Positions 2,728 through 64,000 of a stretch of 64,000 nt of DNA are shown here, piece by piece (position 1 is the stretch's first letter; the number at the start of each line of letters is the position of its first letter). Made by a program: the position numbers and the translations under genes. A model generated the notes under the pieces. The model was given only the letters and a program-made list of their open reading frames with translations, did no database searches and was not told the origin of the DNA. The stretch comes from Pelagomonas calceolata (lineage: Eukaryota > Sar > Pelagophyceae > Pelagomonadales > Pelagomonadaceae): NCBI GenBank assembly GCA_918797485.1, contig CAKKNE010000005.1, positions 5,022,001 through 5,086,000 of the forward strand. Direction: 5' to 3'.

Positions 2728-4090
2728 ATGGGTAAGACCATCCGCGGCGCCCGTAAGGGCAAGAACTCCATCTTCACGGCGCACACGCGCCTGCGCAAGG
2801 GCCCCGTGCGCCTGCGCAAGATCGACTACGCCGAAAAGTGCGCGGGCCGCGTCCCTCTCTCGCGACTCTTCGACCGACCGATTGGCGCAACGGCAGCGCG
2901 TCAGATTCCAGTCCTGAAGGTTACGTGTTCGAATCACGTATCGGTCACAGCAGCACTGAGCCTCGGTGGTCCGGGGGGTGGACTTCAGTTCCACAGCCGT
3001 TTCGCGACGGAGCGGTTCGATTCCGTCTGGGCTGCGACTGCTGGATTGGTGTAGTGGTTATCACGTCTGCTTTACACGCAGTAGGTCACCGGTTCGAGCC
3101 CGGTATCCAGTAGAGAGCGTCGGAGAGAGCGCGCGAGGGCACGCCGGTCACGCGTTTTTTCCCCACTCGCAGGGAGGGCTACGTCAAGGGCGTCGTGAAG
3201 GCCATCGTCCACGAGTCGGGCCGCGGCGCGCCCATCGCGAAGGTCCAGTTCCAGAATGCGTACCGGTATCAGAGGGATACGGAGCTCTTCGTCGCGGCCG
3301 AGGGCATGCACGAGGGCGCGTTCGTGTACTGCGGCGCCAAGGCGCAGCTGGCGGTCGGCAACGTGCTGCCGCTGAAAGCGATCCCCGAGGGCACGGTCGT
3401 GTGCAACGTCGAGGCCAAGCTCGTGCGCGGGCCGCGTCCGCTTCTCTTCAATCCGACCGATTGGCGCAACGGTAGCGCGTCAGATTCCAGTCCTGAAGGT
3501 TACGTGTTCGAATCACGTATCGGTCACAGCAGCACTGAGCCTCGGTGGTCCGGGGGGTGGACTTCAGTTCCACAGCCGTTTCGCGACGGAGCGGTTCGAT
3601 TCCGTCTGGGCTGCGTTATACACACCATCGTCGAGAGGCGACAAGAGAGCTCCTGGTCACCCGCACGTCCACGCAGGGCGACCGCGGCGCGTTCGCGCGG
3701 TGCTCGGGCGACTACGCCGTCGTCGTGACGCACGACGAGGAGAAGGGCACGACGAAGCTGCGCCTGCCGTCGGGCGGCAAGAAGAGCGTCAAGTCCGTGT
3801 GCCGCGCCATGGTCGGCATCGTCGCGGGCGGCGGCCGCACGGACAAGCCCATGCTCAAGGCGGGCCGGGCATACCACAAGTATCGCGTGAAGCGCAACGA
3901 GTGGCCCAAGGTTAGGGGTGTTGCGATGAACCCCGTGGAGCACCCGCACGGCGGCGGCAACCACCAGCACATTGGTCATCCTTCCACTACTCGTAGAGAT
4001 GATGTTGCGGGCAAGAAGGTCGGTCTGATCGCGGCGCGGCGAACGGGCCGGCTCCGCGGCATCAAGAAGACGGCGGTGGACAAGGACTAG
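2728..4090 (+). CDS. RPL8: 60S ribosomal protein uL2 (RPL8), 3 exons with intronic tRNAs
   Basis: Exons 2728-2837, 3173-3422 and 3677-4090 join to a 257-residue uL2, the same length as human RPL8. The protein opens [16 protein letters not shown] and ends with the signature [20 protein letters not shown] and a [13 protein letters not shown] tail. Intron 1 (2838-3172, phase 2) restores AEKEGYVKG; intron 2 (3423-3676, phase 0) restores EAKLGDRG. Both are GT-AG and both open with GTGCGCGGGCCGCGTCC. Intron 1 carries tRNA-Trp, tRNA-Sec and tRNA-Val genes; intron 2 carries a second Trp-Sec pair. uL2 sits at the peptidyl-transferase centre of the large subunit. Nested same-strand Pol III genes inside a highly expressed Pol II gene are unusual. 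Confidence 0.95.
2876..2947 (+). tRNA. tRNA-Trp(CCA), copy 1, in uL2 intron 1
   Basis: 72 nt including discriminator A. The acceptor GACCGAT (2876-2882) pairs with ATCGGTC (2940-2946). The D-arm region TTGGCGCAACGGCAGCGCG and T-arm GTTCGAATC are canonical A and B boxes. The anticodon loop TTCCAGT gives CCA at 2908-2910. There is an A-C mismatch at the loop-proximal pair of the anticodon stem (31-39). It begins 38 nt inside uL2 intron 1. Confidence 0.92.
2950..3036 (+). tRNA. tRNA-Sec(TCA), copy 1, in uL2 intron 1
   Basis: 87 nt with the eukaryotic selenocysteine tRNA plan: a long acceptor (2950-2958 with 3027-3035), a U-U mismatch at pair 8 as in the human gene, CCTCGGTGGTCCGGGG D-arm, anticodon stem GTGGA/TCCAC with loop CTTCAGT (anticodon TCA, 2985-2987), a long variable arm CCGTTTCGCGACGG, T-arm CGGTTCGATTCCG and discriminator G. 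An A-G mismatch sits at pair 6. It starts 3 nt after the tRNA-Trp, close enough for dicistronic transcription. Confidence 0.9.
3040..3112 (+). tRNA. tRNA-Val(TAC), in uL2 intron 1
   Basis: 73 nt. The acceptor GCTGGAT pairs with ATCCAGT, with a G-U first pair. The D-arm GTGTAGTGGTTATCAC and the B box GGTTCGAGCC match eukaryotic tRNA-Val. Loop TTTACAC gives anticodon TAC (3073-3075). It starts 4 nt after the tRNA-Sec and ends 60 nt before the intron 3' splice site. There is no second copy in intron 2. Confidence 0.92.
3455..3526 (+). tRNA. tRNA-Trp(CCA), copy 2, in uL2 intron 2
   Basis: Same 72-nt gene as at 2876 with one visible substitution in the D-arm (GGTAGC). Anticodon CCA is at 3487-3489. 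The duplicated copy stays fully foldable, which argues that both copies are functional. Confidence 0.92.
3529..3615 (+). tRNA. tRNA-Sec(TCA), copy 2, in uL2 intron 2
   Basis: Copy of the gene at 2950 with no visible substitution over 87 nt; the TCA anticodon is at 3564-3566. It ends 61 nt before the intron 3' splice site. Many eukaryotes carry a single tRNA-Sec gene, so a second intact copy is noteworthy. Confidence 0.9.
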
Positions 4091-4183
4091 ACGGCCGCGG
4101 CTAGTTTTTAATTGGGGTTTCTCTTTTACTCTGTAGTAGTACTGGCAGTGTCACACAAGGCGCAAGGGGAGGTGCAGGTGTCT

Positions 4184-27465: not shown

Positions 27466-28257
27466 ATGTCGGCCGCGGCGCCGGCGGGCGTAGCCACCGA
27501 GAAGCGGCCCGCGGCGGCGCCCGAGGCCGTCGCCGCGCCGGAGGAAACTCAAAAGAGACGCCGCGTCGCGGGCCGCCTCGTGGCGTACGACGACGAGGGC
27601 CACCGGCCCAAGGCCTGGCGCCGCGACCTGTCGCCCAAAAAGCCGGCGACGCGACGGGCGTCCAAGGGCGCGCGCGTCGCCTTCGCGGACGGGTCCAAGC
27701 CCGTCGCTGTTGATACGCCGGCGCCCGTCGCGGATCCGCAGCGCCAGGCGCAGCAGCGGCGGCTCTTAGGAAGGCGCATGGATCGCGCGATCTGGGACGC
27801 GTTCCGGAGCCGCGAGTTCGCGCCCATCGAGGCCTTGTTGGCGCACGGCGCCGACGCCGGGTATGTCAGGACCGAGGGCGGCGGCGAGACGGCGCTCATG
27901 GCCGCCGCGTACCACGGGCGCGAAGAGATCTGCCGAGCTTTATTGTCGCGGGGCGCGGACCCGCGCAAACAGGACAAGCGGGGCCACGACGCCGCGGCGC
28001 TGGCCCGCGTCAAGGGCAACGCGACGCTCGCGACGCTGCTGGACGGCGTCTGCCTCGAGCCCGTGGCCGCGCCGCCGCGCGCGGCGACACCCCCGCCCCC
28101 GGAAGCGCCTGCGGCGGCCAAGTCGCCGAAGCAGCGCGGCGACGACGTCCACCCGCGGCTTCTCAAGAAAAACGGCATGGACGACGACGACGACGCGGCC
28201 GACGACGAGGAGGCCATCTCGCGGAGCGTGGCTTTGCCCGAGGCGGAGAGTGGGTAA
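27466..28257 (+). CDS. Ankyrin-repeat protein, probably nuclear
   Basis: 263 residues from the first ATG in frame. The frame is open upstream to 27121 with coding-like composition but no ATG, so an upstream exon is possible. It carries basic clusters (KRRR, about 30-35; PKKPATRRASKGAR) and two ankyrin repeats (about 100-185: WDAFRSREFAPIEALLAHGA, GETALMAAAYHGREEICRAL, LSRGADPRKQDKRGHDAA). The C-terminus is Pro/Ala-rich and then acidic (DDDDDAADDEEA). Small ankyrin adaptor; partner unknown. Confidence 0.55.
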   Translation: MSAAAPAGVATEKRPAAAPEAVAAPEETQKRRRVAGRLVAYDDEGHRPKAWRRDLSPKKPATRRASKGARVAFADGSKPVAVDTPAPVADPQRQAQQRRLLGRRMDRAIWDAFRSREFAPIEALLAHGADAGYVRTEGGGETALMAAAYHGREEICRALLSRGADPRKQDKRGHDAAALARVKGNATLATLLDGVCLEPVAAPPRAATPPPPEAPAAAKSPKQRGDDVHPRLLKKNGMDDDDDAADDEEAISRSVALPEAESG

Positions 28258-55131: not shown

Positions 55132-58100
55132 ATGGGGCCCCCACCGGGGGATCCAGGCTCCCCGGAGCCCCCACCGGCGCCCGGCCAGCGGCGCAGCCCG
55201 GCGCCGCCACCCATGCCAGCCCATGCTGTTCAAATGCAGCCCGAAAGCATACGTGCCCGTGAGCTGCGCGCCGCGCAAGCACAAAACAACGCCTCGGACG
55301 AGTCCGACGGCGCCCTGACGCCTCCGAAACCGCGGGTCCTCCCGCCCGTGCCGTCGCCGCGGTCCGCGCCGGCCGCGGACCGCCTCGCCGCGGAGAACGC
55401 GATGTTGAAAGCCGCGCTGGAGAATGCAAGGAAGACCATCCACGACGCGGCCGCGGAGCGCGACGACCTAAGAAAGCGGGCCACGGAAGAAATAAATGCC
55501 ATGCGAGCCTCGCTCGACGCCGAACGCGCGGAGCTGCGCGAGGCCTCCTACACGAAGGCCGCCCTGTTGCGCCGGTCCGAGCCGCACGCGGACCTGGCGG
55601 AAGCATTACAATCTCTAGAAGCGATGAAGGCCGGGGCCGCCGCGCGGGATGCAAGGGACGCGGCGGCCAAGAGCGCCCTCGCCGACGAGGTGAGCGCTTT
55701 GAAGGCTTCTGGAAGAGCCGCGGCGCGGCTCCAGGCCGACCTCGCGGCCGCCCACGCCGAGCTCGAGGCGGAACGCCAGGGGCGGGCCGCGCAGACCGGC
55801 GCGTTCCGCGCGCAGCTCGACGACATACGGGCCGCCAAGGAGGAGGCCTGCCGCGACGCCGTCGACTGGGCCGAGGAGTCATCCAGGTTCAAGGGCGAGG
55901 TCACGGCGTTGCTCACGAAGTGTCAGAAACTCGAGGAGGACAAGGCGGCAGCCATCGAATCGAATGGTGGATTGGAGGCCGACCTCGCCGCCGCGCGCCG
56001 CGAGACGGATGAGGTAACGGGGCGTTTAGATGGCGCCGTCGCGAGCCTGGCGCAGGCCAAGACGGAGCAGGAGCGGTTGTACGCCGAAACGTCGAGCCTG
56101 AAGCGCGACCTCGCGGCGACGAAGGCGGACCTGGTCCAATCAAAGGCCGACGCCGACGCGGCCCGGGACGCGCGCGACGCCGCGATCGCGGACGCGCGCG
56201 CCGCGGCCAGGCGCTTCTCCCAAGAACTCGCGGCGGCGCGGGCCTCGGGCGAGACGCAGGCCGCCGCCGACGCGCGGGCCGCGGCGGAGCTCCAGCGCGA
56301 CTTGGTTGCCGCGAAGGCCGCGCTCGACGTCGCGCGCACGCCGCCGGCGTCGCCGAACCCGCGCCTGTCCCAGCTCGAGGCCCACGCCGACGCCGCCGAC
56401 GAGGCGCGCGACGCGGCCCTCGCCGAATGTGTCCAGCTCCGCAAGAAGCTCTCTTCGTTGGAGGTGGACCGCGACGAATTACAAGCGGGCCGGGAGACGA
56501 TCAAAGGCAAGGCCGCGAACCTCCAGCGGCGCCTGACGGCCCTCGAGGCCGAGCTGGCGGCGGCGCAGGAAGCGCACGAGGCCCGGCTCTCATCATTAGC
56601 CGAGGAGCGCGACCGGCGCGTCGGCGACGAGCGCGACCGCGTCGCTTCTTTAAGGCGCGAGCTCGCCGGGTCTATAGCAGATCGCGACGACCTCCGCGCG
56701 TCCGTCGACGTCCTGAAGCGGCGAAGTGATACGCTCGAGAAGCAGCTGCGCGAGGAGCGCGCCGCGGCCGAAGTAGCATCGGACCAATTGAAGGAGGACC
56801 GCGAGCGGAGTTTGAGCGAGGAGCGCGCCGCCGGCGAGGCGACGGCCCAGAAACTGCGACGGGACCTCGACGCGAAGCAGGCCCAGCTCGACGAGGCCAA
56901 CGCTTTATTACTGAGCGGCCCCGCGCCGCGCGAGGCCGACGCGCCGGCCGTCGCCCGCCTCAAGGCCGAGCTCGCGACGGCGTCCGAGGCCCTGGACCGC
57001 ATGACCGTCGAGGCTGCCGACGCCGGCCACAGCGCCACGAACTTGAGGCGGGACGTCGAGAGCGAGCGCGACAAGCGCCGCAAGGCCGAGACCGAGGCGA
57101 ACGACCAGCGCCGCGCCGCCGAGGAGGCGCTCAGCCAAGCGGACGCAGTCAAACGAGACGCCGACGCGCGGATGGCCTCGGCGAAGCGCGAGGCCGACGC
57201 GCGGCTCGCGGCGGCCCAGCGCGAGGCCGAGCAGCGCCTCGCGGACGCCCGGCGCGGCGACGCCGAAGCGCTGGCGGACGCGAAACGCGACGCGGAAGCG
57301 AAGCGCCGTGACGCCGACGCGCTCCGGGCGTCGAACGCGGAACTGCAGCGCGTTGCCGACCGACTGCGGGAGGAGCTCTCGGAAATGGGGGAACTGCGGC
57401 GCGAGCTCGCCGCGGCGAGGACGCCACGCGACGACGCGCCGCCGCCGCCGCCGCCGCTCCGGAATCCGCAGGTCGCCGAGCTCCAGCGCGAGGTGGAGCG
57501 CCTCACCGAGGAGGCCGAGAGCCGGCGCGCGACGAGCTTCGTCGAGGCGACGCGGCTCCGGGACGAGGCCGACGCGGCGCGTGCCGTCGCCTCGGACCTG
57601 CGGGACGACCTCCGCGCGGCCGAGGGCCAGCGCGACGAGGCCGTCGACGCCGCGCGCAAGCTCGAGCGGACGGTCGCGCGGCTCAAGGGCGACGTCGACG
57701 CCGCGGCGGGCCGGCGCGACGCGGCGGACGCGCGCGCCTTGCACGAGGCCGCCGCCGCGCTCGACGCGGCCCGGCAGGCGCAGCGCGCCGCCGAGGGCGC
57801 GCGCGACGGCGCCGTCGCCGACGCGGCGCGGCTGCAGGCGGCGCTCGACGCGGCGCGGACCGAGTGGCACTCCCCGCGGCGGCACGGCACGCCCGAGGGC
57901 GCCGACGTCACCCGCCTCGAAGCGGAGCTCGCCGCGGCCCGCAAGGCCGAGGCCGCGACGGCGGCGCGTGTAAGGGACGAGTGCCGCGCGGAGGCGGCGC
58001 GGCTCGAGGCCGACCTCAAGGCCGCGTCGCAAAAGGCCGAGGCCGCGACGGCGGCGCGCGTGCGCGACGAGTGCCGCGCGGAGGCGGCGCGGCTCGAGGC

Positions 58101-61100
58101 CGACCTCAAGGCCGCGTCGCAAAAGGCCGAGGCCGCGACGGCGGCGCGTGTCAGGGACGAGTGCCGCGCCGAAGCCGTGCGGCTCGAGGCCGACCTGCGG
58201 GCCGACCGGAGCGAGCTCAACTCGGCGAAGACGTCGCTGGAACACGAGCTTGCGGCCATGACCCGCGAGCGCGACGTCGCGCTCGCCGCGTGCTCCGAGG
58301 CGAACGGCGAGCTGCGGGCGTTGAAACTGAAGCACGAGCTCGAGGCCGAGCTCGAGGCCGTGCGCACGCCGCCGCGGGACCACGCCGCGCGCGCCGACCG
58401 GGCCGAGCGCGAGAAGATGGAGGCGGAGGCGCGCGAGGCCGAGGTCCGCGCGGAGTTCGCTGCTTTACGTAGAAGACTCGACGCGGCCGAGGCGCGGGCG
58501 GCGTCGACGTCCGACAGCGAGGAAGTCCCGCGGTCACCGGCGGCGGCTCTAAATGAGGAGGTGTCCGAGGTGCTGCGTGAGGCCGACCGCAGCGTGCGGC
58601 AGAATATCAGGAGGGTGGAGACGTTCGAGAGCGGCGACGCGCCCCAGACGCCGCCGCGGTCGCGCGGCTTAAGAAGACGCGTCGCTGCTTTAGCGGAGGA
58701 GCGGGACGCGCTCCTGGCGAACGCCGAGAAGCGGATCAGTTCGCTGACGGAGCAGCTCGCGCGCGTGACGCAGGAGCGCGACGCTGCAAGACCCATCGTC
58801 GAGACGAGGGGCCGCGCCACACAAACCAAGGTCTACGGCCTCCAGCAGCGGCCGCGGAGCGCGCCGCCGTCGCCCCGAGGGTCCTCGGACGACGAGGACC
58901 GCGGCAAGTGGCGGAGAGCGGAAGATGAGTTGAAATCGTTAAGGAGGATGCTCGAGGACGCCGCGGCCTCGGAGGCGAGGGCCGTCGCGTCGCTGAAACG
59001 GGACCTGGCGGCGGCCCAGGCCGAGCTCGACGTGTTGCGGACGCCCCAGAAGAATCCCATGGAGCAGGCGTTGGCCGCGGAAAAAAGACGACGAGAGGTC
59101 CTCGAGGCCGAGCTTTCTGAGGTGCGGCAGGAGCTCGAGAAAGTAAGTGCCGGCGAGGCGCGGGCCGTCGCCACGCTGAAAAGGGACCTGGCGGCCACGA
59201 AGGCGTCCTTAGAAATACACAGCGAGCCGGCGGACACTTCAGTTGTGAAGCGGCTGCGGGACGCGCTGAACGAGGCCACTTCCGAATTGAATGAAGCACG
59301 GAGTTCCATGAAGTCGCAAAAGAAAACGGCGGACGAGCTCGAGGCATGCCGCAGGGCCCACGCCGCGGAGAAGCAAGCGGCGGAGGAACTGCGGCAGAAA
59401 ATTCACGAAGCGTCTCTCGTAAGAACGCCGCCTCAGACGCCGCCGCGCGAGCCGTCGTCGGACCACGCCGCGGCGGGCAGCACCGCGGGCCGCATGCGCG
59501 CCGCAGCTTTAAAGAGCCTGCGCACTGAGCTCGAGCACGCGCGGGCCGCGCTCGCGGAGATGCGCCTTCGCTCCGACCACACGGAGGAGTCCCACGTCAA
59601 GGCGCTGCAGCACGACCTGCGGCACGCGGCCGAGGAGTGCCAGGAACTCCACGACGAAGTGGCTAAAGAAAAGAAGCTCCGCGCGGAGAGCGAGGAGGCT
59701 TTGCGCATGGAGCAGAGCGTCTTCGCCGAGGCGGAGATGGCGCTGCGGGGCAAGATCTCCGAGAAGGCGGGCGCGCTCGAGGCCGAGCGCCGGCTGCGGG
59801 CCGAGGCCGAGGCGTCGCTCCAGGACATGGCGGCGGTGTCCGCGGCGCTCGGCGCCGAGCGCCGGCGGCGCGGCGAGCTCGAGGCCGCCCTCGCAGAATT
59901 ACAAAGGACGAGCTCCGAGAAGGAATCTTCATTAAGAGTGGACCTCACGACGGCCGCGGACGCGTTGGGTGCCCTGGACGAGGAACATAGAACTGAGGCG
60001 GCCGCGCTGCGAAGCAACCTGGAGGCGCAGCACGAGGTCGAGGCGAACCTGCGCGGCGAGCTGGCCCACGCGCAGGACGCCCTGCAGGCCGAGCGCGCGG
60101 CCTGGGCCGAGGTCGAGGCCGAGGTCGAGAATGAGAGAGAGCAGCGGACGCGGACCGAGGACGATCTAAGAGAAGAGCTCCGGGCGGTGGAGGCGGATCG
60201 GACTCGGACCGAGGACGACCTGCGCGCCGAGCTTCAATCAAAAGCGGAGGCCCTGGCCGCGGAGCAGGCGGCGCGGAACCGCACGGAGGCGGCGCTCGCC
60301 GAGGCCGTGCGGCCGCGGACCGGCGACGTCGAGCGCCTCGAGACGCACCTGGTCGACCTCGCGGCCGCGGCGACCGACGAGGTCGACGCGCACCGGAACG
60401 CGGCACAGCGGCGCGCGGCCGAGCTCCAGCGCGCCCGGAGCGACCACGAGGCCCAGGCTTCCAATGCGCAGCGGCGCATCGCCGCGCTCGAGCGCGAGCT
60501 GGCCGCGGCCCGCACGGCGCTCGAGGACGCGAACGCCGACGACGCGGCCGCCGCGCAGACGATCGAGACGCTCGAGCGCGAGCTCGCACATGTCAGTTCG
60601 GGAGCGACGGCCGCGGCGCGCGCCCACGAGCGCGCCCTGGGCGAGGCGCGCGACGAGGCGGCCGCGGAGGCGCGGACCGCGCAGCGCAAGGACGCGGAGC
60701 TCGCGCGCGCGAACGACGCGCTGCAGGCGGCCACGAACGACCGGGACGCGGCCGAGGCCACGATCCAAGGGCTGCGGCGCGATCTCGTGCGCCGCGGCGA
60801 CGCCCTGCGGGTCGCGGAGGAGGACCGGGACGCGACTATACAACAACTGCAGCGCGAGCTGGAGGCGACGAAGCGCGACGCGGCCAAGTGGAAGGACGAC
60901 GCCGACGCGCTGCGGACCGAGGCCTTCGTCGAGGCGACGCGCCTGCGGGACGAGACGCAGGACGCGCGGACTCGGGCGCGCGAGGCAGCGGCTGCGCAGG
61001 CCGAGCGGCTGACGGCCGCCGAGCGCGAGCGGGACGAGCTCCGGCGGAGCGCCGACGAGCGAGCGAAGCGGTTGACAGTCGTCGAGGGCGAGCGGGACGA

Positions 61101-64000
61101 GCTCCGGCGGAGCGCCGACGAGCGAGCGAAGCGCCTGACGGTCGTCGAGGGCGAGCGGGACGAGCTCCGGCGGAGCGCGGACGAACAAGCGAAAAGAAGC
61201 ATAACGCTGGAGCGCGACCTGGCGGCCACGCGCGCCGAGGCCGCGCGGCGCCTCGCGGAGCTCGACGAGGCGGAGGCGGCGACGGCCGCGGCGGCGCGGA
61301 CCGCCGCGACGCTCAAGGCCCGCGTGGCGACGGTCGAGGCCGAGAACGAGGAGCACACGACGCGCAATGCGACGCTCAAGGCCCGCCTCGCCGCGCTCGA
61401 GGGCGCGCTCGCCGCCGCGGAGAGCGCGCCGGAGCCGCTCAAGGCGCGCCTCGCGGCCCTCGCGCAGGACCGCGACCGCCTCGCGGCCGACGCCGACGCG
61501 CGCCTGGCCGACGCCGATCGCCGGGCCGCGGAGCAGCGCCGCCGCGTCGCCGCGCTCGAGGCGGACGCCGAGGCCCAAGCCGCCAAGGAGGAGGCGCTGC
61601 GGCGCCGCGTCGCCGCCCTCGAGGGCGACGTCGCGGCGGCGGCCGCCGCCCAGACGCCGCTGAAGGCGCGCCTCGCGACGGCGACCGACGACTTCGACGA
61701 GGTGGCGCGGGACCGCGACGCGCTCGCGCGCCGCGTCTTCGCCCTCGAGGGCGACGCGGACGCGCGGGCGCAGGAGGCCGCGGGCTTGCGTCGGAAGGTG
61801 AGCGCGCTCGAGGGCGAGCTCGCCGCCCACGCGCCGCTGAAGGCGCGCCTCGCGGCCGCGGGGGAAGACCACGACGAGCTCGGGCGCCAGCTCGCGGCCG
61901 CGACCCGCCGCGCCGCCGCCCTCGAGAGCGACCTCGCCGCGGCGACCGCCGCGCAGACGCCCCTAAAGGCGCGCCTCGCGGCCGCGGCGGACGACCAAGA
62001 GGCGGCAGCGCGGGACCGCGAGGCACTTTCGCGCCGCGTCGCCACCCTCGAGAACGACCAGACCCAGGAAGCCGCCGACTTGCGTAGGAAGGTAAGCGCG
62101 CTTGAGGGCGAGCTCACCAACGCGGCGGCCGCCGCGCAGACGCAGCTCGCGGCCGCGACCCGCCGCGCCGCCGCCCTCGAGAGCGACGTCGAGGCCCAGA
62201 CCCAGGCGGCCGCCGGCCTCCGCCGGAAAATAAGCGCGCTCGAGGGCGAGAAGGGCGCGCTCGGCGTCGCCGCCGAGGCGCGGCTCACCAAGCTCGCTTC
62301 GGAAAAGGCCGCGGCCGAGGCGCGGTGTGAAGAGTTGCGGCGCGCCGCCGAGGCCGCCGCCGCGCACACAGCGACGCACAGCGAGTTTCAGGACGCGGCG
62401 ACGGCGCGGCTGGCCGAGGTCGAGCGCGCGCGGCGGGCGCTCGAGGGCGAGCGCGACCGGCTTCAGGAGGAGCAAGCGGGTGTCGACGCGGAGCTCCGGG
62501 CGCGGACCGAGAGAGCTGAAGAGGCCGAGGCGCAGGCGTCGGCGCTGCGCCAGGACCTCGAGATCGTCGCCGCCGAGCGCGACGCCCTCCGGGCCGAGGC
62601 GGCGGAGGCGCGGGACGCGCTCGAGCGCCGCGTCGAAGTCCTAGCCAAGGAGCGGGACGAGCTCCGGACCGCGTCGGAAGAAAGCAAGGCCAAGCACGAG
62701 GCGCAACAAAAAGCGCTGGGCGTCGCGTCCGAGGCGCGCCTCGCCCAGCTCGACGCGAGGCGGAGCAAGGCCGAGGCGGACTGCGAGCGGCTCCGCCGCG
62801 ACCGCGCGGCCGCCGACGAGCGGGCGCGCGCGGCGCTCGACGAGGCCGACGCGCGCCTCGCGGAGCTCGGCCGCCGCGTCGCGCAGCTCACGCACGAGAA
62901 CGGCGACCTGCAGACGGCCGCCGCCGCGGCGCAGCGGCGGCTCCGGGCCCTCGAGGGCGAGGTTACATTACTTGGAGACGGCCCGCGCGAGGTCCAGGAG
63001 TTGAGGAAGGAGCTCCGGACCTTGAACGACGAGCGCGACGCGGAGGTGGCCCAGGTGCGCCGCGAGCTCGGCGCGATGACGCGCGCGCGCGACGAGGCGC
63101 GGGAGACGGGGGACGAGGCGCGGGCGGCGCTGCGGCGCAAACTCGGCGTGGCCGAGGCGGAGGCCGAGAGTGCAATCGCCACGATATCGGCGCTGCGCGG
63201 CGAGGCGAGTGAAAACGAGGCGGCCCTGGCGCAGCTGCGCCGGGAGCTCGCCGATGCGACGCGGGCGCGCGAGGAGGGCGAGGCGGCCCTTTCTGCGGCC
63301 CGCGCGGACGCCGCCGCTTTGGTCGACGAGCGCGACGAGCTAGCGAGGCACATCGACGACGCCGACGCCGTCGCGGCGACGCTGCGGCGCCAGGTCGCGG
63401 ACCTGGGGACCGAGCGCGACGCGCATGAACTCGATGCGAAGAAGTCGGGCCGCCGCGTGCGGGAGCTCGAGCGCGAGGCCGAGGCTGCGGTCGACTTGAA
63501 GCGCCAGCTCGTCTCCCTAAAAACGGACCGCGACGACCTGCAGACGATGAGCGACGCGCGGAGCGCGGCGCTGCACCGGCGCATCTCGACGCTGGAAGCG
63601 GAACTCACGGAAGCCTCGCAGCGGCTCCCGCCCCTGCGGGCCGAGGTCGCGGCCGCCGAGGACGCGGCGCGCGAGGCCCGCCGGGCGCGCGACGACGACG
63701 CGAGCGCGTTCCGACGCCAGGTTGCCGCGCTCGAGGCGCGCCTGGCGGAGGCGGAGCGGCCTGCCGTCGCGACGCCCCAGCGCCCCGACCGGGACCAGTT
63801 GCTCGAGGACGCCGAGGGTCGCGTTCAAACCCAGCGGCGGGCGCTCCTCTCCGCGACGCACGAGCGCGACGAAGCCATGGCGCAGTACGACGTTTTGAGA
63901 AGACGCATCGCGTCGCTGGAAGCGGCGCTCCAGGAGCAGCGGGACGCGGCCGACCGCACGACGCAGCAATTGCGGAGCGAAAAACGAGATTTGGAGAGCG
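55132..64000 (+). CDS. Giant coiled-coil protein, 3' end outside window
   Basis: From ATG 55132 the plus frame has no stop to the window edge: at least 2,956 residues. After a Pro-rich N-terminus of about 90 residues (with SPRSAPAADRLAAENAML leading into the helix), the rest is almost unbroken heptad-type sequence dominated by Ala, Arg, Glu, Leu and Asp, with common blocks such as ERDELRR, LEAELAAA and LKRDLAAT. Brief Pro-containing breaks (for example TPPRSRG, RTPPQTPPREPS) divide it into rods. The pattern suits a very long rod: golgin, centrosome/basal-body or rootlet-type scaffold. No motor, kinase or GRIP motif is visible. Low-complexity composition makes homology-based naming unsafe. Confidence 0.85.
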   Translation, partial: MGPPPGDPGSPEPPPAPGQRRSPAPPPMPAHAVQMQPESIRARELRAAQAQNNASDESDGALTPPKPRVLPPVPSPRSAPAADRLAAENAMLKAALENARKTIHDAAAERDDLRKRATEEINAMRASLDAERAELREASYTKAALLRRSEPHADLAEALQSLEAMKAGAAARDARDAAAKSALADEVSALKASGRAAARLQADLAAAHAELEAERQGRAAQTGAFRAQLDDIRAAKEEACRDAVDWAEESSRFKGEVTALLTKCQKLEEDKAAAIESNGGLEADLAAARRETDEVTGRLDGAVASLAQAKTEQERLYAETSSLKRDLAATKADLVQSKADADAARDARDAAIADARAAARRFSQELAAARASGETQAAADARAAAELQRDLVAAKAALDVARTPPASPNPRLSQLEAHADAADEARDAALAECVQLRKKLSSLEVDRDELQAGRETIKGKAANLQRRLTALEAELAAAQEAHEARLSSLAEERDRRVGDERDRVASLRRELAGSIADRDDLRASVDVLKRRSDTLEKQLREERAAAEVASDQLKEDRERSLSEERAAGEATAQKLRRDLDAKQAQLDEANALLLSGPAPREADAPAVARLKAELATASEALDRMTVEAADAGHSATNLRRDVESERDKRRKAETEANDQRRAAEEALSQADAVKRDADARMASAKREADARLAAAQREAEQRLADARRGDAEALADAKRDAEAKRRDADALRASNAELQRVADRLREELSEMGELRRELAAARTPRDDAPPPPPPLRNPQVAELQREVERLTEEAESRRATSFVEATRLRDEADAARAVASDLRDDLRAAEGQRDEAVDAARKLERTVARLKGDVDAAAGRRDAADARALHEAAAALDAARQAQRAAEGARDGAVADAARLQAALDAARTEWHSPRRHGTPEGADVTRLEAELAAARKAEAATAARVRDECRAEAARLEADLKAASQKAEAATAARVRDECRAEAARLEADLKAASQKAEAATAARVRDECRAEAVRLEADLRADRSELNSAKTSLEHELAAMTRERDVALAACSEANGELRALKLKHELEAELEAVRTPPRDHAARADRAEREKMEAEAREAEVRAEFAALRRRLDAAEARAASTSDSEEVPRSPAAALNEEVSEVLREADRSVRQNIRRVETFESGDAPQTPPRSRGLRRRVAALAEERDALLANAEKRISSLTEQLARVTQERDAARPIVETRGRATQTKVYGLQQRPRSAPPSPRGSSDDEDRGKWRRAEDELKSLRRMLEDAAASEARAVASLKRDLAAAQAELDVLRTPQKNPMEQALAAEKRRREVLEAELSEVRQELEKVSAGEARAVATLKRDLAATKASLEIHSEPADTSVVKRLRDALNEATSELNEARSSMKSQKKTADELEACRRAHAAEKQAAEELRQKIHEASLVRTPPQTPPREPSSDHAAAGSTAGRMRAAALKSLRTELEHARAALAEMRLRSDHTEESHVKALQHDLRHAAEECQELHDEVAKEKKLRAESEEALRMEQSVFAEAEMALRGKISEKAGALEAERRLRAEAEASLQDMAAVSAALGAERRRRGELEAALAELQRTSSEKESSLRVDLTTAADALGALDEEHRTEAAALRSNLEAQHEVEANLRGELAHAQDALQAERAAWAEVEAEVENEREQRTRTEDDLREELRAVEADRTRTEDDLRAELQSKAEALAAEQAARNRTEAALAEAVRPRTGDVERLETHLVDLAAAATDEVDAHRNAAQRRAAELQRARSDHEAQASNAQRRIAALERELAAARTALEDANADDAAAAQTIETLERELAHVSSGATAAARAHERALGEARDEAAAEARTAQRKDAELARANDALQAATNDRDAAEATIQGLRRDLVRRGDALRVAEEDRDATIQQLQRELEATKRDAAKWKDDADALRTEAFVEATRLRDETQDARTRAREAAAAQAERLTAAERERDELRRSADERAKRLTVVEGERDELRRSADERAKRLTVVEGERDELRRSADEQAKRSITLERDLAATRAEAARRLAELDEAEAATAAAARTAATLKARVATVEAENEEHTTRNATLKARLAALEGALAAAESAPEPLKARLAALAQDRDRLAADADARLADADRRAAEQRRRVAALEADAEAQAAKEEALRRRVAALEGDVAAAAAAQTPLKARLATATDDFDEVARDRDALARRVFALEGDADARAQEAAGLRRKVSALEGELAAHAPLKARLAAAGEDHDELGRQLAAATRRAAALESDLAAATAAQTPLKARLAAAADDQEAAARDREALSRRVATLENDQTQEAADLRRKVSALEGELTNAAAAAQTQLAAATRRAAALESDVEAQTQAAAGLRRKISALEGEKGALGVAAEARLTKLASEKAAAEARCEELRRAAEAAAAHTATHSEFQDAATARLAEVERARRALEGERDRLQEEQAGVDAELRARTERAEEAEAQASALRQDLEIVAAERDALRAEAAEARDALERRVEVLAKERDELRTASEESKAKHEAQQKALGVASEARLAQLDARRSKAEADCERLRRDRAAADERARAALDEADARLAELGRRVAQLTHENGDLQTAAAAAQRRLRALEGEVTLLGDGPREVQELRKELRTLNDERDAEVAQVRRELGAMTRARDEARETGDEARAALRRKLGVAEAEAESAIATISALRGEASENEAALAQLRRELADATRAREEGEAALSAARADAAALVDERDELARHIDDADAVAATLRRQVADLGTERDAHELDAKKSGRRVRELEREAEAAVDLKRQLVSLKTDRDDLQTMSDARSAALHRRISTLEAELTEASQRLPPLRAEVAAAEDAAREARRARDDDASAFRRQVAALEARLAEAERPAVATPQRPDRDQLLEDAEGRVQTQRRALLSATHERDEAMAQYDVLRRRIASLEAALQEQRDAADRTTQQLRSEKRDLES
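57943..58212 (+). repeat. 90-bp tandem repeat (3 copies) in the giant coiled coil
   Basis: AAGGCCGAGGCCGCGACGGC starts units at 57943, 58033 and 58123, a 90-bp period encoding a 30-residue block (AARVRDECRAEAARLEADLK core). The first two are nearly identical; the third has diverged at its end. Confidence 0.88.
61027..61215 (+). repeat. 63-bp tandem repeat (3 copies) in the giant coiled coil
   Basis: GAGCGGGACGAGCTCCGGCG starts units at 61027, 61090 and 61153. The 63-bp period is 21 residues (ERDELRRSADERAKRL core), exactly three heptads, so expansion keeps coiled-coil register. Confidence 0.9.

Follow-up and report, generated by a model that had tools for sequence, protein, structure and literature searches.

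Nuclear tRNAs of eukaryotes are held to be products of RNA polymerase III (Pol III). Polycistronic tRNA clusters, in which tRNAs follow one another with spacers of a few nucleotides, are well known, and tRNA homologues derived from mitochondria and located in human introns reportedly affect splicing. Here we describe a 64,000-nt stretch of contig CAKKNE010000005.1 (positions 5,022,001 to 5,086,000) of the pelagophyte alga Pelagomonas calceolata, referred to as the window, in which five tRNA genes lie within the two introns of the gene for ribosomal protein uL2. Spacers between these tRNAs are as short as in polycistronic clusters, but the runs are located inside spliceosomal introns and mostly lack terminators. 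The window lies on contig C5 of a genome of 32.4 Mb in eight contigs, which was searched for similar arrangements. Our favored reading, held with moderate confidence, is that the uL2 introns are part of a genome-wide class of tRNA-carrying spliceosomal introns with introner-like spread, whose tRNAs would be made from RNA polymerase II (Pol II) pre-mRNA.

Three described systems come close to this locus. Genes for tRNAs, including tRNA-Trp, occur inside introns of protein-coding genes in Caenorhabditis elegans, where the host promoter affects their expression and release by splicing was raised as a theoretical possibility (PMC4999229). According to the same source, 44% of the C. elegans tRNA genes are intronic, which is not above chance, and unlike the introns described below, only 56% share the orientation of the host, with no excess over chance. 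Intron-hosted small nucleolar RNAs (snoRNAs) and the RNase P RNA of arthropods are also small RNAs inside introns of Pol II genes, and the latter, descended from a Pol III ancestor, is described as having moved into introns in insects and crustaceans (PMC6797745). Those RNAs are processed from the intron, as would be the case here. The tRNAs in P. calceolata differ in keeping internal promoter boxes, and their maturation would go through RNase P and tRNase Z, in contrast to the Rat1/Xrn2 and exosome route of the intronic RNase P RNA. Introners, as found in Aureococcus and Micromonas, are similar in having shared ends in unrelated genes, complementarity between ends, and possible presence/absence variation. 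They differ in that the bodies here are tRNA genes, varying in tRNA content, and that no consistent target-site duplication was seen. Because both the tRNA content of the bodies and the tails vary, the class is called introner-like rather than introner. In Aureococcus sp., an introner lengthens the transcript by 12 bp (4 aa), and the main text of that study mentions neither tRNA nor cargo (PMC9860276); the residues ARTG at two Arg-CCT introns in P. calceolata may match this addition. The P. calceolata genome was reported to have 16,667 genes with 0.45 introns per gene and an intron length peak of ~210 bp, a size regarded as typical of A. anophagefferens introners, in a paper whose main text does not mention tRNA (PMC9481584). 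No report of tRNA-bearing introns in pelagophytes was found in the titles and abstract openings of a mostly open-access literature without preprints.

The uL2 gene and its introns

The initial annotation placed five same-strand tRNA genes in two uL2 introns, with Trp-Sec-Val in the first, Trp-Sec in the second, and spacers of 2–3 nt. ARAGORN and Rfam both recover this order, with all five genes on the + strand and all above the Rfam gathering score (cut-off of 47 bits for Sec and 29 bits for Trp and Val; Table 1). Spacers are 1–3 nt, varying with where the discriminator base is counted. Both introns have GT-AG ends, and their removal restores the host frame. Among the splice pairs tested, excision of these two introns yields an open frame for a uL2 protein of 257 residues with conserved sequence kept. 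The full-length product that had been proposed is corroborated by the presence of PF03947 and by a gap-free alignment of residues 1–251 to solved 60S L8/uL2. On nuclear contigs, uL2 was found once; two weaker matches are on contigs 7 and 8, which are the chloroplast and mitochondrion (PMC9481584).

Table 1. Coordinates of the uL2 gene, its introns, and the tRNAs they carry (positions in the window)
Feature	Positions	Strand	Evidence or remark
uL2 exon 1	2728..2837	+	Ends ..DYAE plus two bases of K; splice model and L8/uL2 alignment
uL2 intron 1	2838..3172	+	GT-AG, phase 2, 335 nt, Trp-Sec-Val; P0001 reads DYAEKEGYVKG
Donor-end element, intron 1	2838..2854	+	Form similar to other tRNA introns
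tRNA-Trp(CCA) copy 1	2876..2948	+	ARAGORN; Rfam 59.4 bits
tRNA-Sec(TCA) copy 1	2950..3036	+	ARAGORN; Rfam RF01852 62.5 bits
tRNA-Val(TAC)	3039..3113	+	ARAGORN; Rfam 62.1 bits
T6 in 3' tract of intron 1	3155..3160	+	42 nt past tRNA-Val end; possible Pol III stop
uL2 exon 2	3173..3422	+	Splice model
uL2 intron 2	3423..3676	+	GT-AG, phase 0, 254 nt, Trp-Sec; P0001 reads NVEAKLGDRG
Donor-end element, intron 2	3423..3439	+	17 nt identical to intron 1 element
tRNA-Trp(CCA) copy 2	3455..3527	+	ARAGORN; Rfam 61.8 bits
tRNA-Sec(TCA) copy 2	3529..3615	+	ARAGORN; Rfam RF01852 62.5 bits
uL2 exon 3 and stop	3677..4090	+	Splice model

The two copies of tRNA-Sec are identical (87/87), and those of tRNA-Trp are identical at 72 of 73 positions. 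The leaders of the two introns agree in 28 of 39 aligned columns and the tails in 38 of 67. As a yardstick, the 60 nt preceding each intron agree in 37 of 67 columns. Judged by these counts, the tRNA cassettes and the opening 17 bases of the introns seem to be copies of one another, and the likeness of the tails is no greater than between unrelated sequences.

The proteins examined were 12 of 120, 24 of 54, and 19 of 48 of those listed. One environmental protein (P0001), from a 1184-nt contig that may derive from RNA or DNA and is too short for the introns, is exact across both uL2 junctions; its C-terminus looks chimeric. Five others (P0018 and P0121–P0124) read through uL2 intron 2 and have 0, 1, 0, 0, and 0 differences, respectively, in the 53 Trp-Sec residues. 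In the tail, 9 of 20 residues differ for P0018 and P0121, and the other three tails are too short or shifted. A Leu-Leu-Trp-Sec cassette in two environmental uL2 sequences (P0125 and P0126) was set aside by eye as the product of chimeras joined at tRNA-Trp, because its Leu-Trp part resembles the cluster in a symporter intron. Nine further proteins (P0127–P0133, P0149, and P0165), in which different hosts seem to be fused at identical tRNA-Trp copies, were likewise judged by eye to be chimeras. Such joins are a warning about short-read assemblies of P. calceolata near tRNA-Trp.

Same-sense tRNA introns across the genome

A DNA search of the genome with uL2 intron 1 identified 31 places, comprising the two uL2 introns, 28 over tRNA-Trp, and one over tRNA-Val. 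Generic tRNA patterns (A box and B box) produced 42, 21, and 5 rows, compared to 0, 0, and 1 for reversed-pattern controls, and searches for GCGTC or GTGTC before the A box produced 15 and 3 rows, with none in controls. By contig number, 47 rows from the first two pattern sets are nuclear. These include 31 that fall in 30 explicit intron models and five in two further introns of region R12 with less certain ends. Four more are unexamined but have GCGTC or GTGTC 6–36 nt upstream of the A box, four are not intronic or not tRNA (R01, R17, and two in R22), and three are unexamined.

Twenty-two of the 26 merged nuclear regions with an ARAGORN tRNA appear to have tRNAs in same-sense introns, and coding sequence flanks both sides in 20 of the 22. 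Regions R03 and R24 were assigned as intronic by donor and acceptor motifs in likely untranslated regions (UTRs); in R24, a deacylase gene follows downstream. Three regions (R01, R22, and R23) were judged not intronic, R00 was left out of the intronic count as a decayed copy of R20, and R17 has no ARAGORN tRNA. The 30 explicit GT..AG models contain 60 ARAGORN tRNAs, with one to seven per intron, and many different isotypes are carried across the intronic regions. Introns 1 and 3 of R12, with less certain ends, were kept out of the 30-model set, and frame restoration as a check applies to models within coding sequence. The counts leave out several Trp matches of the intron 1 search, together with C4:4504657, C4:3727669, three C5 tRNA-Arg, C2:5803274, and C3:5049090. 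A genome search with RF00005 scored 63 of its 492 first candidates.

Hosts named by Pfam matches to joined exons are eL24 (PF01246), cyclophilin (PF00160, three introns), a cold-shock domain protein (PF00313), a bile-acid symporter (SBF, PF01758), tubulin C (PF03953), H2A (PF16211), homocysteine methyltransferase (PF02574), and a PARG-like protein (PF10021). TRM13 (PF05206, 28.7 bits, cut-off 26) and a D-Tyr-tRNA deacylase (PF02580), in which the tRNA is in a likely 5' UTR intron, were also identified. The best PDB match of the eEF3 host is elongation factor 3A (2e-66), and a class-3 alcohol dehydrogenase has a PDB match at 1.2e-11 and no Pfam match at E 0.001. THX scores above cut-off with TIGR04560 and below cut-off with PF17070. 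A sodium/solute symporter is a tentative assignment (TIGR00813 far under cut-off, no Pfam match), the R12 host was called a cold-shock protein by eye, and hosts in R07, R13, R14, and R19 have no Pfam match at E 0.001. Several hosts are translation or tRNA genes. With tRNA introns in this many other hosts, uL2 as a lone oddity is ruled out.

The share of tRNAs that would be intronic by chance was estimated from ~7,500 introns (0.45 × 16,667) of 210–250 nt, the upper length being assumed, which occupy ~5–6% of the genome, and same-sense introns ~3%. The binomial probability of 22 of 26 regions is 4e-30 at 3% and 2e-23 at 6%, values that are illustrative only because the regions were not randomly sampled.

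A genome search with the tRNA-Sec family RF01852 yielded five matches. Two are over the cut-off and both are in uL2; the other three are below it (38.8–41.1 bits) and on contigs 7 and 8. No tRNA-Sec over the Rfam cut-off was identified in the genome outside uL2 among the 53 of 3333 first candidates scored, and restriction to uL2 is regarded as strong but not absolute because of that fraction. SepSecS, which is needed to make Sec, has one match in the genome (E 1.6e-111).

Regions R00 (C1:167248-170321) and R20 (C5:166985-170368) have similar sequence near one end of C1 and C5, and the tRNA introns of the alcohol dehydrogenase are decayed in the C1 copy (R00). The symporter intron (L006) appears by eye to contain tRNA-Leu- and tRNA-Ser-like copies at ~990–1045, 1237–1266, and 1313–1343. 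These seem to have hairpin inserts of ~20–30 nt in the D or T arm, possibly ectopic tRNA introns, and one stretch of the same host intron is called by ARAGORN as an Ala tRNA interrupted by an intron of 143 nt.

Shared ends and possible mobility

The donor end of the introns is GTACCGCGGCCGCGTCC or a near form, and that of the Arg-CCT class is GCGGACCGGC^GTCC. The distance from donor to first tRNA is 8–43 nt in 29 of the 30 models (median 31, with one at 276), and the shared donor end is found 20–43 nt upstream of the first tRNA in 27. The median distance from last tRNA to acceptor is 40.5 nt, and many 3' ends have GACGGTAC, TCACGCG, or GGTCCGCG ahead of the AG. A 16-mer, GTACCGCGRCCGCGTC, has 11 matches in the 32.4 Mb and none in the control, and eight of the matches are donors of tRNA-intron models. 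Its use as a generic intron donor is ruled out by this low number. At L096, the sequence after the 16-mer was judged by eye to resemble a decayed tRNA-Arg; it lies immediately ahead of the start of a new gene, and this site is perhaps a fossil tRNA intron. The matches at L097 and L098 are probably chance matches in coding sequence, since they have no tRNA and lie in long open frames.

Ends of the same intron pair with each other better than with swapped partners (-26.5 versus -23.3 kcal/mol, 0 of 5000 permutations). The same is found with intron-side sequence only and swaps within class (-20.0 versus -17.6, 0 of 5000). Class I, with 25 introns, drives this pattern (-25.6 versus -22.9). Donors and acceptors were chosen partly with motif bonuses, which alone could not favor own over swapped pairs. 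The end pairing, seen over all introns but not within class II by itself, may reflect terminal inverted repeats. The uL2 introns are predicted to fold with their 5' end paired close to the 3' end and the final 10–17 nt unpaired. Repeats resembling target-site duplications were noted by eye at THX (GTACC) and R19 (GTGCGG), and none at uL2, H2A, or eEF3. Intron bodies differ in tRNA content and tails, so they are not near-identical along the whole element. Two Arg-CCT introns in unrelated genes (R15 and R16; C2:6070003 and C2:6114237) have the same ARTG residues before the junction.

Environmental eEF3 sequences suggest that a site can be filled or empty. Eight proteins (P0137, P0138, P0158, and P0173–P0177) have a tRNA intron after FGTY, a site that is uninterrupted in the reference. 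On either side of it, they agree with the reference at 111 of 111 residues (P0138) or 181–186 of 186 residues, with 186 of 186 for both P0173 and P0174. The filled and empty sites come from different sources, whose genomes may each carry more than one copy of eEF3. Three other proteins (P0179, P0181, and P0183) and an Aureococcus model (P0194) continue through FGTY without a tRNA intron; P0178 continues for eight residues past FGTY and then looks chimeric. P0181, which may stem from RNA or DNA, has its eEF3 exons joined where introns 1 and 2 were predicted to lie, with a single differing residue next to the first. P0183, which has the tail of intron 1 and lacks intron 2, was not used as an empty genomic allele as it may be partly spliced RNA. 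VPRPRP, the peptide that the donor end encodes in one frame, is present in 18 of 216 collected proteins, including a ClpP-like (P0212) and an amino-acid-transporter-like (P0211) protein.

Shared ends, the filled and empty eEF3 site, the 28 tRNA-Trp-like places beyond the two in uL2, and copies that look decayed by eye (L096 and R00) would all be expected of a mobile intron family resembling short interspersed nuclear elements, in which tRNA sequence merely hitchhikes and most copies are no real source of tRNA. We consider this improbable, as the only tRNA-Sec genes found lie in these introns and the genome has an enzyme of the Sec pathway, conservation of the tRNA part contrasts with variation in the tail, and many isotypes are carried. 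Mobile introns with tRNA cargo are a tentative proposal. An insertion would then both make an intron and deliver Pol II-made tRNAs, and a eukaryote would draw part of its tRNA set, possibly including all tRNA-Sec, from introns in the mRNAs of highly expressed genes.

Strand, terminators, and the source of the tRNAs

Introns were first modeled on the tRNA strand only, and scoring was therefore repeated on the opposite strand. Of 37 tRNA groups, 29 are preceded by a loose donor motif on the tRNA strand and 7 on the opposite one. The exons on both sides score ≥8 in 19 of 37 and 9 of 37 groups, respectively, and the tRNA strand outscores the other strand in 25 of 37. Two of the 30 introns have a T4 within 40 nt past the last tRNA and none has a T5, compared to shuffled means of 0.77 and 0.11. 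None of 30 inter-tRNA spacers, delimited by ARAGORN ends, has TTTT. Past the second uL2 tRNA-Sec, the next run of at least four T starts at 4105, beyond the uL2 stop codon. In the symporter cluster, one B box is followed by TTTT starting where the tRNA ends. B boxes with a long T run downstream also exist in other parts of the genome, in at least 170 rows, many per place (reversed-pattern control, 17), and include the tRNA places at C2:5803274 and C3:5049090. The non-intronic tRNA-Thr of R23 is followed by T9.

Because the intronic tRNAs are mostly without the usual tRNA stop signal, it is suggested that they are cut from mRNA introns, and they are probably released from Pol II introns. In this scenario, the tRNAs would be transcribed within the host Pol II pre-mRNA and the intron would be spliced out before tRNA cutting. 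RNase P and tRNase Z, which are the enzymes that cut tRNAs in general, would then free them from the excised intron. Supply of tRNA-Trp and tRNA-Sec would follow the output of a ribosomal-protein gene, and introns would spread as introner-like elements with tRNA cargo. End pairing may, as a guess, bring the splice sites together around the bulky tRNA body. The initial annotation had raised release from the mRNA intron in the manner of snoRNAs, and this part of it is the best fit to the same sense, chance-level terminators, shared and self-complementary ends, and ~20 other regions. The release step itself is deduced from genomic sequence, and Pol III could transcribe the intronic tRNAs because the A and B boxes are kept. 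If the scenario is true, tRNA supply depends on splicing and on how strongly Pol II transcribes genes for ribosomal proteins and elongation factors. A single species would have tens of same-sense intronic tRNA genes, mostly terminator-less, with tRNA-Sec found only there. Introner-like introns would be able to carry functional cargo, and, in an alga that is widespread in the ocean, intron gain would be linked to the copy number of tRNAs.

Several results weigh against this reading. The loose donor motif also matches R22, which was judged not intronic and is counted within the 29 of 37. Exon score by itself gives only modest separation of the strands, and the strand claim is therefore carried by hosts named by homology. 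The level of T runs, compared with shuffles, is near chance and not below it. The tRNA sample is partial and started from a uL2 query. Own ends of class II (Arg-CCT, five introns) pair no better than swapped ends (-30.8 versus -31.1), the whole-intron fold stability of the uL2 introns is no better than that of shuffles (z of -0.48 and +0.65), and ARAGORN and Rfam (E up to 0.1) detect no tRNA at L096. Intronic tRNAs keep intact A and B boxes and the tRNA fold, and the T6 of uL2 intron 1 lies just outside the 40-nt count. Lastly, the deposited P. calceolata uL2 model (P0004, 313 aa) retains the start of each intron. Its donors at 2925 and 3504 (introns 2925–3172 and 3504–3676) are within the T arm of each tRNA-Trp and would place tRNA-encoded peptides in uL2, for which reason its exon structure is read as probably an annotation error.

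The disagreement with P0004 and the chimeric appearance of P0127–P0133 at tRNA-Trp could also be signs of an assembly or modeling artefact. This is very improbable given that environmental proteins (P0018 and P0121–P0124) have an identical arrangement of Trp-Sec cassette and adjoining uL2 exon, and given the anatomy shared by 22 regions.

A stronger contender, though we still consider it unlikely, is that these are ordinary Pol III tRNA genes nested in introns. Pol III would be recruited by the internal A and B boxes, read through the short spacers, and stop at terminators that are weak or far away, with the host promoter mattering little. The scores of all five uL2 tRNAs are those of normal tRNAs, Pol III could be halted past tRNA-Val by the T6 at 3155, and B boxes with long T runs elsewhere indicate that Pol III genes are likely in use. 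The C. elegans frequency of intronic tRNA genes also fits nesting. The scarcity of T4 within 40 nt of the last tRNA does not, nor does the lack of a T run after the uL2 intron 2 tRNAs until beyond the stop codon. The bias to the same sense is larger than in C. elegans, and chance would not predict shared intron ends. Transcription of the tRNAs as part of Pol II introns is the reading we retain, based on features established at the sequence level: anatomy, strand, shared ends, end pairing, chance-level terminators, and tRNA-Sec found in uL2 only.

Two minor observations concern the rest of the window. ARAGORN predicted a tRNA-Leu(tag) at 27729–27826, which was rejected as absent from the Rfam gathering-score list. 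Positions 56001–64000 have a high GC content (0.70–0.78) and a strong AT skew (0.30–0.44).

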